44,220 bases of DNA, taken from contig LADR01000087.1 in NCBI GenBank assembly GCA_000961655.1, forward strand, positions 1-44,220, given 5' to 3'. The notes under the pieces are model-generated. The model worked only from the letters and a program-made list of their open reading frames with translations, made no database searches and had not been told where the DNA came from. The stretch comes from Desulfatitalea sp. BRH_c12 (lineage in GTDB: Bacteria > Desulfobacterota > Desulfobacteria > Desulfobacterales > Desulfosarcinaceae). Within the stretch, counting starts at the first letter, position 1; every line of letters begins with the position of its first letter. Below, piece by piece: positions 33,479 to 43,528 of this stretch. The position numbers and the translations under genes are program-made.

Positions 33479-34391
33479 GCAACAACCCTATTACGACCGT
33501 CAGGGAACAAAAAGATAATACCGTAGAGAGCATAATTGCGGCTGACGCCAATTCAGTATCGCTACCCAACTGGGATGACAGCACGTAGATCGCCGGAGAA
33601 GTGGGCAGGGCAAAAAAGATGAGTCCTACTGCGTAATAAATTCCTGCGACACCGAACATGTGCAGGAAAAGAGCCCCTGTCGCCGGCAACAGCAATAGCT
33701 TGAACGCTGCTGACGCCAGGGCCGGCCTGAAATAGGTTTTAAGCGTTTGCAAGGTCAGGCTGCCGCCGATCGAGATCAGGGCCAATGGCAGTGTGACTGC
33801 GGCGCCCAGCCGAAACGTGCTGTCGATAAAGGATGGAAACGCATTGATCCAGCGCGCATAGAGCAATCCGGCCGCGCAGCTGATCACCAGCGGGTTGCTC
33901 ACAATTGAAAAAAACGTGCTGCGTAAACGCTGGCGCCAGTTTCCCGGATGTTCCGAAAACCAAATCAAGGTTGTGACCGCCAGAACATTGATAAGCGGAA
34001 TGGCCACCGCTATGAGGATGCCGAAAAGTGCGACGCCTCTTTCACCCAGGATGCTAAGTACAACCGCCATGCCCACGTAGGTATTGAACCGATAACAACT
34101 CTGTGAAAACGCACCGGCTTGAAATTTAGGGACCCAAAACACAATATACACTGTGCTGAGCACATACACTGCGCCGATGGCGCACATGGTCGCCAGATAA
34201 AGATCGAAGGCCTCTCCGGCCAGGTGGCGGTCCGCGGTGCCGATCTTCCAGAACAGCATGCCCGGAAAAAATATATAATAGATCAAGCGATCGGTGCGCG
34301 CCAAAAAGGCCCTATCGGTCATGTGGAAGCGTTTGAGGAAAGCGCCTAGTACAATTAAAGCGAATGCGGGAAAGAGATGCTCGATGACCAT
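33471..34391 (-). CDS. AEC family transporter (auxin efflux carrier-like permease)
   Basis: A 306-residue membrane protein with about ten hydrophobic segments. The N-terminal LIVLGAFLKR and the repeated inverted five-helix pattern, with NTYVGMAVV and a proline-rich FFALPTSPAIYVLSSQLGSD near the end, are typical of the AEC family. Members export or import small organic anions such as malate; the substrate cannot be told. It lies between the candidate selenoprotein gene (45 bases upstream) and truA (8-base overlap). Confidence 0.88.
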   Translation of the reverse strand: MVIEHLFPAFALIVLGAFLKRFHMTDRAFLARTDRLIYYIFFPGMLFWKIGTADRHLAGEAFDLYLATMCAIGAVYVLSTVYIVFWVPKFQAGAFSQSCYRFNTYVGMAVVLSILGERGVALFGILIAVAIPLINVLAVTTLIWFSEHPGNWRQRLRSTFFSIVSNPLVISCAAGLLYARWINAFPSFIDSTFRLGAAVTLPLALISIGGSLTLQTLKTYFRPALASAAFKLLLLPATGALFLHMFGVAGIYYAVGLIFFALPTSPAIYVLSSQLGSDTELASAAIMLSTVLSFCSLTVVIGLLHA

Positions 34392-34436
34392 GAGAGTGGG
34401 GAATCCTGAGGTTGACCGATGATTGAGATCAGTCCG

Positions 34437-34661
34437 CTACATCCGATTGCAGACAATGTTGCCCAAAGCCGCTTCCATGCGTTCATCCAACTGATCGAGC
34501 AGGTCGGACAAGTCGTATTTCAGGCTGCATGCCATGCAGCGCCAGTGCATGTCCCGTCACGACCGTTGAAGCGTCAACGGCTTGCGGCACTGCGGGCAAA
34601 CGAATGAAGGGGTGTCCAGTCGCATATGAACGTCCTGATTTTGAAATTGGTTCAGCGTCAT
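34437..34661 (-). CDS. Candidate selenoprotein with two CXXC motifs (in-frame TGA = Sec)
   Basis: A 75-codon frame runs from the ATG at 34661 (AGGA site seven bases upstream) to TAG at 34437, broken only by one TGA at 34557-34559. Read through, it gives 74 residues: CPQC at 22-25, U35 in the context LQRS-U-RDMHWR, CMAC at 42-45, then an acidic helical tail (YDLSDLLDQLDERMEAALGN). The Cys pairs suggest a zinc ribbon or redox protein. A SECIS-like hairpin lies at the expected distance after the TGA. I recall a deltaproteobacterial family described as dual-CXXC small (seleno)proteins that fits in size and motif. The alternative is a pseudogene from a CGA-to-TGA change, but the frame, CXXC and start signals are intact on both sides. 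The selenocysteine machinery is not in the window. Confidence 0.72.
34524..34540 (-). promoter_or_regulatory. SECIS-like hairpin after the in-frame TGA
   Basis: On the minus strand GCTGCATGGCATGCAGC forms a 7-bp stem with a GGC loop. It begins 17 bases after the TGA and its loop is at 24-26. Bacterial SECIS elements lie within the coding region with the loop about 16-37 bases after UGA and usually a G at the loop start; this fits. Confidence 0.6.
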
Positions 34662-34847
34662 TTCCTTTTCCTGGTTCGTACATCAGTGAACCGTAAGGAT
34701 ACGCGTCAAAAACTACTGTTTAGTGAAAATTGGTTTCGATGGCAACTAAAAAGGCGAATTGACATTTGCCCGGTTTTGACCCATGAAGACTTTCCCAATG
34801 TTGATTTTCAACGTCGATATCATGCGAGCATCATCAAGGAGGCTAAT

Positions 34848-36035
34848 GTGAGCGAATCCATTCAATGCCCAGGATTTGTAGCGGCAGGCGTATCCGCCGG
34901 CATCAAGAAGAAAACAGCCCTCGACCTCGGGTTGATCTTTTCACAGCAGCCTGCCACGGTTGCCGGCATGTTCACGCGCAATCGCGTCATGGCCGCCCCA
35001 GTGCAAATTACCCAAAAAAGGACGGCGCATGGCGTGGCCCAGGCCATCGTGGCCAATGCCGGCTGCGCCAACTGCTGCACAGGCGACCAGGGTGTGCTGC
35101 ATGCCCGTGAAATGTGCGCCGCCGCTGCCGCCGGCCTGGGAATCGATGCGGAACGAATGCTGGTGGCGTCTACTGGTGTCATCGGCGCGCCCCTGCCAAT
35201 TGCAAAAATTCAGGACGCCATGCCGGCGCTGATCCAAGGCCTGCGACCGGACGGCTTCGAGGCTTTCGCGCGGGCCATAATGACCACCGACACCGTTCCC
35301 AAACTGGTGCGCCGTCAGGGTGTCATGGAGGGTACGCCTTTTACCCTTTTGGGCGTTGCCAAAGGCGCCGGTATGATCCGGCCCGACATGGCCACCATGT
35401 TGTGCTTCGTTTGTACGGATGTGGCCGTCTCGGCGACGTCATTGCAAGCCATGTTGCACCAGGCCGTCGACCGATCCTTGAACTGTATCACCATCGACGG
35501 CGATACCAGCACCAACGACACGGTTTTGCTGATGGCCAATGGGGTTTCGGGAGTGGTTGTGGAAACGGCTGACCAGCGCCAGGTATTTCAGGACCTGCTC
35601 GATGACCTGTTGATGGACATCGCGCGTCGTCTGGTCAAAGATGGTGAAGGGGTCACCAAGGTGGTGGAAATCAAGGTCACAGGCGCTGCATCGCGGCAGG
35701 ATGCTTTCCGGATTGCCGACACGGTTGCCCATTCACCCCTTGTCAAGACCGCTTTTTTTGGTGAAGATGCCAACTGGGGGCGTATTCTAGCCGCTGCCGG
35801 ACGTGCCGGCGTGGCGTTCGACCCGCGCGTCATCGAAGTCTTTTTCGATGGCATTCAAATGGTTGCGGCCGGGCAGGGCTGCGGTCCGGACAGGGAAACG
35901 CAGATCACCGCCATCATGAAACAACCGGAGTTCACTGTGACCATCGACCTGCACGGCGGCAGCGCCGAGGCCAGCATGCTGACCTGCGATTTTTCACTGG
36001 ACTATGTGAAGATCAATGCCGATTATCGATCATGA
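34848..36035 (+). CDS. argJ: Bifunctional ornithine acetyltransferase / N-acetylglutamate synthase
   Basis: Moves acetyl between N-acetylornithine and glutamate in the cyclic arginine pathway. The 395-residue precursor is cut by itself before the nucleophile T183 in RPDMATML. Also visible are the N-terminal [22 protein letters not shown], the KGAGMI motif, and the [15 protein letters not shown] and [16 protein letters not shown] segments. The start is a GTG at 34848 after AAGGAGG, although the frame is open from 34626. It is transcribed divergently from the selenoprotein-AEC-truA group. Confidence 0.97.
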
Positions 36036-40894: not shown

Positions 40895-42547
40895 TTACAG
40901 CACCCGGACTTTATACACCTGATTGGAGTGCGCATCGATGACATGCACGCCGCAGGCGATACACGGATCGAAAGAGTGCACGGTGCGCAGGATCTCCAAA
41001 GGCTGGCTGGGATCGGCGACCGGGGTGCCGATCAGGGCTTCTTCGACCGGTCCTAATTTGCCCTTGGCATCGCGCGGCCCAAGATTCCAGGTGGAAGGCA
41101 CCACATACTGATAGTTTTTGATCTTTTTGTTTTCCACCTGGACCCAATGGCCCAGAGCGCCGCGCGGCACATCATTGAGGCCGACGCCCTGGCAGTTTCC
41201 TTCGGGAATCTCGTAAGGCTCGTAGCTCTTGGTGTCACCGCTCTTGATATTTTCCACCAGGTCCATGACCCAGCCCTGCAACGCATCGCCGATCGCAACG
41301 GTCTCGATGCAGCGCGCCGCGGTCCGGCCCAGCGTCGAAAACAGCGCCGGGGCGGGAACACTGAGCGAATTCAGAACTTTTTCAACGAGTGGCTTGATAT
41401 CCTTATGACCTTTGCCATAAGCGACCAGCACGCGGGCCAATGGACCGACTTCGCAGGCCTCGCCTTCGTAGCGTGGCGCTTTGGACCAGGAGTACTTGCC
41501 TTTGTCCGGATTGTATTTGGGGTTTTCCTTGAGCGGTTTGGTCTCGCCCTCAAAAGGATGTTTCGCGGCGCCTTTTTCATACCAGGCGCGGGTGACATCC
41601 TCGGTCACCTTGGTGGCATCGGCCATCTTGATGTTGGCCAGATCACGCTTCATCATGACCCCGCGCGGCATGTAAAGACTTTCAGGTTCTTTCTCGTCCG
41701 CCGGAAATTCCCCCCAGGTGAGGAAATTCTGGGTACCGCCGATGGCGCCCCAATCCTTGTAGAAGGAAGCCACTGCCAGCACATCGGCCAAATAGACGTT
41801 CTTGATAAAATCCTGAGTCTCCTTTGTCAGGTAAAGAAACTCGGCAATACGCTCCGCGTTCAGATCGGCCGCACAGGTGACACCACCGACCACCAAGCCC
41901 TGCGGATGGGGATTTTTACCGCCGAAGATAGCGTGCATGCGTGCCGTGCGTGCCTGCAGTCGCAAAGCCTCGATGTAATGCGCACTGGCCATCAGGTTGG
42001 CCTCGGGCGGCAGTTTGTAGGCAGGATGGCCCCAGTAGGCGTTGGCGAACGGGCCCAGTTGGCCGCTGTCCACAAATGTTTGCAGCCGCTGCTGAACTTG
42101 CTTGAAGTAGGCTGTGCCGCCTTCCTTGGCATTGGACAGGTTGTCAGCTAGAACAGCTGTTTTCTGGGGATCGGCTTTCAGCGCGCTGACGATATCGACC
42201 CAATCCAGGGCATGCAGGTGATAAAAATGCACCAGATGGTCATGCTGGTATTGCGCGGCATGCATCATGTTCCGAATCAGACGCGCATTTTTCGGGATCG
42301 TTACCTTGTAGGCATCGTCCACGGCGCGTACGGATGAGATGGCGTGAACATACGTGCACACACCGCAGGAGCGCTGTACGAAATGATGCGCATCTCGCGG
42401 GTCGCGCCCCTGCAGGATCATCTCGATGCCGCGGAACATCTGCCCCGAACTCCACGCATCCACGACCTTGCCGCCTTCCACTTCGACTTCGATCCGCAAA
42501 TGGCCTTCAATTCTTGTGATTGGATCGACTACAATTCGCTTACCCAT
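40895..42547 (-). CDS. hynA: [NiFe] hydrogenase large subunit, group 1 periplasmic type
   Basis: Catalytic subunit for H2 uptake, 550 residues. The N-terminal nickel motif is RSCGVCTYVH (C61, C64) and the C-terminal motif is DPCIACGVH (C529, C532, H535). The first residue of the latter is Cys, so this is a [NiFe] and not a [NiFeSe] enzyme. A 15-residue extension after H535 (VIDAHSNQVYKVRVL) is the part removed on maturation. The protein has no signal of its own and would be carried out with the small subunit. It follows the small subunit by 39 bases. The sequence most resembles the Desulfovibrio periplasmic enzymes (recollection). Confidence 0.96.
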   Translation of the reverse strand: MGKRIVVDPITRIEGHLRIEVEVEGGKVVDAWSSGQMFRGIEMILQGRDPRDAHHFVQRSCGVCTYVHAISSVRAVDDAYKVTIPKNARLIRNMMHAAQYQHDHLVHFYHLHALDWVDIVSALKADPQKTAVLADNLSNAKEGGTAYFKQVQQRLQTFVDSGQLGPFANAYWGHPAYKLPPEANLMASAHYIEALRLQARTARMHAIFGGKNPHPQGLVVGGVTCAADLNAERIAEFLYLTKETQDFIKNVYLADVLAVASFYKDWGAIGGTQNFLTWGEFPADEKEPESLYMPRGVMMKRDLANIKMADATKVTEDVTRAWYEKGAAKHPFEGETKPLKENPKYNPDKGKYSWSKAPRYEGEACEVGPLARVLVAYGKGHKDIKPLVEKVLNSLSVPAPALFSTLGRTAARCIETVAIGDALQGWVMDLVENIKSGDTKSYEPYEIPEGNCQGVGLNDVPRGALGHWVQVENKKIKNYQYVVPSTWNLGPRDAKGKLGPVEEALIGTPVADPSQPLEILRTVHSFDPCIACGVHVIDAHSNQVYKVRVL

Positions 42548-42586
42548 GCAATTTCCTCCCTATTTTCAAGCACTCCGTGCGGGTTG

Positions 42587-43528
42587 TCACATCTCTTGAT
42601 AAAACGGGGTCATTTCATCCCAGAAATTGGGCTGGCTGCATCCGATGCATGGATGGCCTGCTTCCACGGGCCAACTGGTCCCATCATTGAATTTGGCAAT
42701 CGGACAGTTGTTGTAGGTTTCAGGACCGCGGCAACCGACTTTGTAGAGGCAATAGCCCATGGTCGCCTCTTTGGAGCCGAACTCTTCCACAAATTCGTCG
42801 TTTTCGAAATGCGAGCGCCGCGGGCATTGGTCGTGAATGGTTTTGCCGTAGGCAAAGAGCGGCCGGCCCAAGTTGTCCAGGTCCGGCAGTTTGCCCAGCA
42901 GGAGATAATTGACGATAGTGCCCACCAGGTTGACCGGATTGGGAGGACATCCAGGAATGTTGAGTGTTTTCATATTGAGCGCCTGGCCGACCCCTTTGTA
43001 GCCACCCGGATTGGGCTTGGCCGCCGGCACGCCGCCAAAACTGGCGCAGGTGCCATAGCAGATGGTGGCTGCAGCCTGCGGGCACACTTTTTGAGCGATC
43101 TCCAGAAAGGTCCGATTTCCGATTTTGCCGTATCCACCTTTATAATTGGTCGCGATCGAGCCTTCCACCACGCAGATGAATTTGCCTGAATGCTTTTTCA
43201 CCGCTGCTTCCAGTTGCTCTTCGGCTTGATGGCCAGCAGCTGCCATGATGGTCTCGTGGTATTCGACCGACAGGATCTCCAGGAGGAGTTCGTCCGCATA
43301 CGGATACATCGTGCGCAGCAATGATTCCGAACAGCCGGTACATTCACCCAAATTCAGCCAGATCACCGGGGGGCGCGTTGAAGGGGCGGCGAACACCTCC
43401 GCAACTTTTGGCACGAAACTGTGCGACAGTCCCAACGTGGCGGTCACGAAGGTGCAATACTTCATAAAGTCCCGTCGCGTTACTCCCTTGCTTTCCAGTC
43501 TTTCATAAAAGCGCTTTTCGTTCTCCAT
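42587..43528 (-). CDS. hynB: [NiFe] hydrogenase small subunit (Tat-exported)
   Basis: Electron-transfer subunit, 313 residues. The twin-arginine signal TRRDFMK (17-23) is followed by a hydrophobic stretch and a likely cut near residue 48. Proximal-cluster ligands are ECTGC (C63, C66), CYGTCASFGG and IPGCPPNP. The distal and medial cluster region has IHDQCPRR, GYCLYKVGCRGPETYNNCP and FNDGTSWPVEAGHPCIGC. No membrane anchor is at the C terminus and no cytochrome b gene follows, so the enzyme is probably soluble in the periplasm and donates to a c-type cytochrome. The ATG at 43528 has a strong GGAGG site. Confidence 0.96.
   Translation of the reverse strand: MENEKRFYERLESKGVTRRDFMKYCTFVTATLGLSHSFVPKVAEVFAAPSTRPPVIWLNLGECTGCSESLLRTMYPYADELLLEILSVEYHETIMAAAGHQAEEQLEAAVKKHSGKFICVVEGSIATNYKGGYGKIGNRTFLEIAQKVCPQAAATICYGTCASFGGVPAAKPNPGGYKGVGQALNMKTLNIPGCPPNPVNLVGTIVNYLLLGKLPDLDNLGRPLFAYGKTIHDQCPRRSHFENDEFVEEFGSKEATMGYCLYKVGCRGPETYNNCPIAKFNDGTSWPVEAGHPCIGCSQPNFWDEMTPFYQEM

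Follow-up and report, generated by a model that had tools for sequence, protein, structure and literature searches.

Introduction

Whether an in-frame TGA codon ends a small gene or is read as selenocysteine (Sec, U), and what the encoded protein might do, are the questions raised by a short frame in Desulfatitalea sp. BRH_c12. The window, that is, the whole 44,220-nucleotide stretch of contig LADR01000087.1 that was analysed, contains on the minus strand, at 34661..34437 (-), the frame MTLNQFQNQDVHMRLDTPSFVCPQCRKPLTLQRS*RDMHWRCMACSLKYDLSDLLDQLDERMEAALGNIVCNRM*, with a single internal TGA, a CPQC motif before it and a CMAC motif after it. The original prediction had described such a frame as that of a likely unannotated selenoprotein without naming a strand, and the motifs are indeed there, on the minus strand; a plus-strand reading of 34437-34661 was rejected, as it has no CXXC pair. 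The conclusion reached here, to which we give a probability of about 0.93, is that the gene is a member of an already catalogued family, NF041197, and that its UGA is decoded as Sec. What is added to the existing record is a correction of the start codon, a test of the SECIS hairpin with Cys genes as controls, a conserved C-terminal tail, the predicted position of U in a hairpin turn and an association with dsrA that is uncorrected for descent.

The gene and its start codon

The frame is not a chance one, because its product matches the NCBIfam family NF041197, "dual CXXC motif small (seleno)protein" (CxxC_Se_CxxC), with 58.9 bits (E 4.1e-16, U scored as Cys, curated cut-off 40 bits), and because the family is found in 27 of 30 genomes, the window's included, from its own GTDB family. 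The match spans profile positions 1-53 of 53, it is the one NF041197 match found in the window genome, and the two CXXC motifs that define the family stand on either side of the Sec/Cys position (CPQC, TGA, CMAC).

The original prediction opened the frame at ATG 34661, which makes the TGA residue 35 of 74, seven residues ahead of the second CXXC; this count agrees with the sequence as read from that ATG. Translation very likely begins at the internal ATG 34625-34623 instead, judging from the sequences of relatives. The start was moved there since the alignment of 10 relatives from the same GTDB family begins at this Met, since three of the relatives (L088, L089 and L093) have an in-frame TGA just 5' of the corresponding Met, L088 also a TAG, and since an AGGA, a likely ribosome-binding site, lies 7 nt upstream (34633..34636 (-)). 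The upstream ATG 34661 is likewise preceded by AGGA and, on the window sequence taken alone, would be a second candidate. The gene thus delimited, 34437..34625 (-), has TAG 34439-34437 as its stop and would encode 62 amino acids, with the first CXXC (CPQC, residues 10-13) at 34587..34598 (-), the Sec codon (U23) at 34557..34559 (-), the second CXXC (CMAC, residues 30-33) at 34527..34538 (-) and the codons of a C-terminal tail, CNRM, at 34440..34451 (-).

Family identity and published descriptions

The small dual-CXXC (seleno)protein family to which the original prediction referred is NF041197, a family already described. According to the accessible parts of PMC13188914, OS_HP3 is the same as NF041197, has the motif RxU and goes back to a 2007 study of Olavius symbionts, and "hypothetical protein DW", with the motif GxU, is given the same accession. 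The available text of PMC12013277 names both OS_HP3 and DW in Desulfosarcina widdelii PP31 and describes DW as having no conserved domain, and OS_HP3 is also listed in the portion of PMC9312934 at hand. No function for OS_HP3 or DW is given in these parts of the three papers. The window protein shares with OS_HP3 the match to the whole profile, the two CXXC motifs with U between them and the type of C-terminal tail, and there is no difference that matters except that the window start codon has been corrected. The GxU-type genes found here would be DW, to go by the GxU motif and the Desulfosarcina widdelii source in its description. They are like the window gene in having two CXXC motifs, U between them at equal spacing and a hairpin at equal offset, but differ from it in having GxU in place of RxU, in lacking the DR-hydrophobic tail and in lying near dsr genes in one third of the compared GTDB families.

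The nearest named records to the window protein come from Desulfatitalea and other Desulfobacteraceae/Deltaproteobacteria (9 loci). A Pfam scan of the protein gave nothing above the gathering score (best CoiA_N, 17.2 vs 26.3 bits), an Rfam scan of 34300-34900 gave no match, and a tblastn search of plasmids gave no match at E 0.01.

Relatives and the exchange of Sec and Cys

Relatives were collected as 167 rows of family matches from 30 genomes belonging to the window's GTDB family and 395 genomes of a phylum sample, in which the family is present in 112 of the 395. The rows of the window genome itself (G000) were left out, as were the weakest ones, namely four rows of 23 bits that lack a stop (two of G011 and one each of G022 and G023) and the rows of G073, G074, G286, G195, G356, G260:C123 and G302:C47. 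The sequences of 160 of the 167 were read, the last 7 being left out, and two incomplete ones (L099 and L190) were set aside, so that 158 remained; L077 and L227, which contig ends truncate, are counted.

At the position of the window TGA these 158 relatives, the window gene not counted, have Sec in 130, Cys in 28 and any other residue in none. Homologues with UGA or Cys at this position are what the original prediction had asked for, and the Arg or other residue that it named as evidence to the contrary is absent. The exchange is found within both main types, with 88 U and 12 C in the RxU type and 42 U and 2 C in the GxU type, and a group ending in [IL]IYD has Cys only (n=14). Conservation also continues past the TGA, the lack of which the original prediction had named as further evidence to the contrary: in an alignment of 74 proteins of the RxU and IIYD types, the columns without variation are those of the four CXXC cysteines, C30 and C33 among them, and of U/C. 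A tree of 157 proteins needs at least 4 changes between Sec and Cys, although it is poorly resolved, 77 of its 153 inner branches being open. Three distant RxU-type members (L204, L208 and L215, GTDB family f59) have CxC instead of CXXC at the first motif. Moreover, two GxU-type frames (L220 and L232, f48) run without a stop for more than 100 residues beyond the usual end and represent an extended form.

Selenocysteine machinery

The window genome contains tRNA-Sec (72.4 bits), selA (613.8), selB (379.5) and selD (372.6), each over its cut-off, so the Sec-decoding deltaproteobacterium supposed from the window sequence, with the selA, selB, selC and selD that were to be checked, is borne out. 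Co-occurrence with tRNA-Sec was tried as a test and is uninformative, because 355 of the 395 genomes in the phylum sample pass the cut-off; under stricter filters some U-bearing genomes have only weak tRNA-Sec matches, e.g., G261 with a best E of 5.3e-8. SelD is known as a selenoprotein in other bacteria. The selD match of the window genome (L242, G000:C66:111700-112626) has one in-frame TGA, and this SelD is probably itself a selenoprotein, to judge from its sequence.

The SECIS-like hairpin

A hairpin, GCTGCAT-GGC-ATGCAGC, at 34524..34540 (-), begins 16 nt after the TGA and has a stem of 7 bp and a GGC loop at nucleotides 24-26 after the TGA, stem length and loop being as in the original prediction; it overlies the second CXXC codons (34527-34538). 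The limits for bacterial SECIS elements given in the accessible parts of PMC13188914 are a loop of 3-9 nt, a stem of 4-16 bp, a G in loop bases 1-2, a UGA-to-loop distance of 16-37 nt and a minimum free energy of at most -7.5. The window hairpin lies within these published limits, with the 3-nt loop GGC, 7 bp, 23 nt and -8.3 kcal/mol for the hairpin taken alone. The minimum-energy fold of a 48-nt stretch of the window, as a single sequence, differs from the hairpin. Single-sequence folding was dropped as a criterion, being a poor discriminator that was also passed by 6 of 12, 11 of 14 and 0 of 2 Cys genes, and was replaced by a synonymous-codon test, in which the protein is kept, the codons are redrawn according to local usage and the stem pairs are counted.

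In the 131 Sec genes, the window gene included, 5.81 of 7 stem pairs are formed vs 4.83 expected in synonymous recodings (z 14.2, which is not to be read as a probability, the sequences being kin and not independent), and at least 6 pairs plus a G at loop base 1 or 2 are found in 92 of 131 vs 28.2 expected. The 28 Cys genes have 3.86 pairs vs 3.80 expected (z 0.4), and none of them combines at least 6 pairs with the loop G. When the stem start is shifted from 6 to 23, the mean number of pairs reaches its maximum at 16, with 5.92 in one Sec type and 5.57 in the other. Furthermore, the bases of stem pair 1 vary (GC 55, TA 16, CG 13 and AT 6), and pair 7 is also swapped, while pairs 4 and 5 are set by the Cys codons and carry no evidence for a hairpin. 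The hairpin is thus selected beyond the needs of the protein in the Sec genes and not in the Cys genes, and this Sec-only selection backs its supposed role as a SECIS element. The case for the hairpin in the window gene rests on the comparison with its relatives, because the window stem taken alone, with 7 of 7 pairs, is not significant against synonymous recoding (p 0.083).

This same p value, together with the stop that a gene caller reads at the TGA, speaks for taking the codon as a true stop, in which case the locus would be a pseudogene, a frame error or a gene for a short CPQC peptide. Such a reading is very improbable, since relatives have the TGA at the same codon or else Cys, since conservation goes on beyond it up to the second CXXC and since hairpin selection is confined to the TGA genes. 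A TGA decoded as another residue, by general read-through or by reassignment to Trp, Gly or Arg, would leave the family match standing, NF041197 scoring 50.5 bits and still over the cut-off with Arg at U. We regard it as exceedingly improbable, because all 28 relatives without TGA have Cys, because the genome has the Sec machinery and because the hairpin downstream falls within the bacterial SECIS range quoted above. Decoding as Sec remains the preferred reading.

Predicted fold and the C-terminal tail

The AF2 model of the window protein (mean pLDDT 76.6) has strands at 16-21, 26-30 and 36-38 and a helix at 39-55, and the model of a GxU-type member is similar (mean pLDDT 82.5). U23 falls between the predicted strands 16-21 and 26-30, i.e., in a hairpin turn, a placement read from secondary structure and not from coordinates. 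Foldseek matches for the window model are zinc ribbons (RNA polymerase subunits, ZifS and YfgJ), all weak, with a best E of 0.066 and none at or below 0.001, and the GxU-type model again gave weak zinc-ribbon matches. What the window protein would have in common with RPC11/RPB9, YfgJ and ZifS is a predicted beta-hairpin with two Cys knuckles, and at this strength of match no common function is implied. From the models, the window protein may be a zinc ribbon that carries U in its hairpin turn.

Among the 88 RxU-type proteins with U, 78 have R or K at U-2 and 74 at U+1. The 99 complete RxU-type proteins all end in [DN][RHKI]-hydrophobic, with one extra residue in six, and the residue before this tail is C in 66 of the 99. 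Every complete non-GxU protein read ends either in this way (99) or in [IL]IYD (14); the type labels (A, Aiiy and B) were assigned partly by the tail, L145 and L077 being moved by hand, so that the tail count holds for the non-GxU proteins as a whole.

Gene neighbourhood and dsr genes

The next gene, 45 nt downstream of the selenoprotein gene, encodes an AEC-type membrane transporter (PF03547, 33471..34391 (-)), and a truA-type tRNA pseudouridine synthase gene (PF01416, 32738..33478 (-)) overlaps the transporter end. The longest ORF of the divergent argJ (PF01960, 34626..36035 (+)) starts one base from the selenoprotein start codon; its true start is probably further in, since the ArgJ match begins only at residue 86. 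Elsewhere in the window, the large and the small subunit of a hydrogenase are encoded at 40895-43528 (-), and since the large subunit ends in DPCIACGVH, the hydrogenase is the Cys [NiFe] form and not [NiFeSe].

A truA gene accompanies the family on the same strand in 30 loci, which come from 7 GTDB families (f1, f4, f6, f7, f9, f10 and f11), all of the window's order, including 23 of 27 loci in the window's own GTDB family. The transporter is nearby in 19 loci (2 families), argJ in 24 (4 families), pyrE in 12 (4 families) and a gene of a cluster that we take to be FabD-like in 11 (4 families), and GxU-type genes of families other than those with dsr neighbours lie near topA, dnaX, recR, dprA or thrS. 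Because the neighbours vary between lineages, the neighbourhood singles out no one pathway.

A strong match to dsrA, the gene for sulfite respiration (E<1e-100, 190 genomes; 188 by the cut-off), is found in 107 of the 112 family-bearing genomes vs 83 of the 283 without the family (395 phylum genomes, kinship ignored), and dsrA is in the majority in 36 of 38 GTDB families with the family vs 14 of 70 without it (kinship ignored). Among the 14 GTDB families in which part of the genomes have dsrA, no separate signal links the two. Five genomes have the family but no strong dsrA match. Two of them, G071 and G142, are 67% and 76% complete, and G074 has a family match of 22.7 bits with two TGA; in G339 (97% complete) the best dsrA match has E 2.7e-14, and in G326 (100% complete), which has a Cys member, it has E 4.9e-5. 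As 83 dsrA genomes are without the family, it is not required for the Dsr pathway. The association is a clade-level link uncorrected for descent and is offered as a lead.

In addition, 10 of the 44 GxU-type loci, from 5 of 16 GTDB families, have dsrA, dsrK or dsrP no more than 6 kb away, vs 0 of 116 RxU/IIYD loci. The ten (L193, L198, L202, L207, L209, L212, L214, L216, L228 and L229) stand beside dsrAB/dsrMKJOP, and most are divergent from genes for a TPR protein and a DVU0298-family protein, an order kept in five GTDB families.

Possible function and significance

In the mechanism that we propose, the ribosome would read the UGA as Sec, directed by the SECIS hairpin 16 nt downstream, which lies over the second CXXC codons, and Sec would be supplied through the genome's own tRNA-Sec, SelA, SelB and SelD. 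The four CXXC cysteines may hold one zinc in the ribbon, with Sec exposed in the beta-hairpin turn between basic residues and not bound to the metal. There it could carry out selenol/thiol redox chemistry or form a redox-switched contact with a partner, which might also recognise the fixed C-terminal tail. Computation shows the family membership, the Sec/Cys exchange, the hairpin selection and the presence of the Sec machinery. The functional part, that is, the zinc ribbon, the exposed Sec, its redox or partner contact and the recognition of the tail, is a tentative proposal that we consider rather doubtful as a whole.

Two other functions may be weighed against it. U could instead be one more metal ligand, the fifth, or act as a switch in metal binding. 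This would fit the five invariant Cys/Sec positions and the accessible text of PMC13188914, according to which Sec may bind metal in other families, and the original prediction had also allowed a metal-binding position. The predicted strands disfavour this by placing U in a turn between residues 21 and 26, 7 residues from the second knuckle, and we think it unlikely. A small basic zinc ribbon that acts on tRNA, in RNA modification with TruA and without redox chemistry, might be supposed from the recurrent truA on the same strand and from the basic residues around U; but all seven GTDB families with this arrangement belong to the window's own order and other lineages have different neighbours, such as pyrE and the FabD-like gene, which makes it quite unlikely. 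The exposed, redox-active or partner-contacting Sec thus stays our working proposal.

On a wider view, both types of the family might be accessory to sulfate or sulfite respiration, as Sec-tipped zinc ribbons for the sensing or handling of intermediates (sulfide, persulfide or selenium) alongside the Dsr pathway, with the RxU tail docking in a partner; this is a speculation with low odds. An orphan selenoprotein family that is common in the window's GTDB family (27/30) and present in 112/395 genomes of the phylum sample has handles for functional work in its clade link with dsrA, its fixed tail and the place that U takes in the fold prediction. The corrected start and a SECIS element lying over the CXXC codons are useful for annotation.
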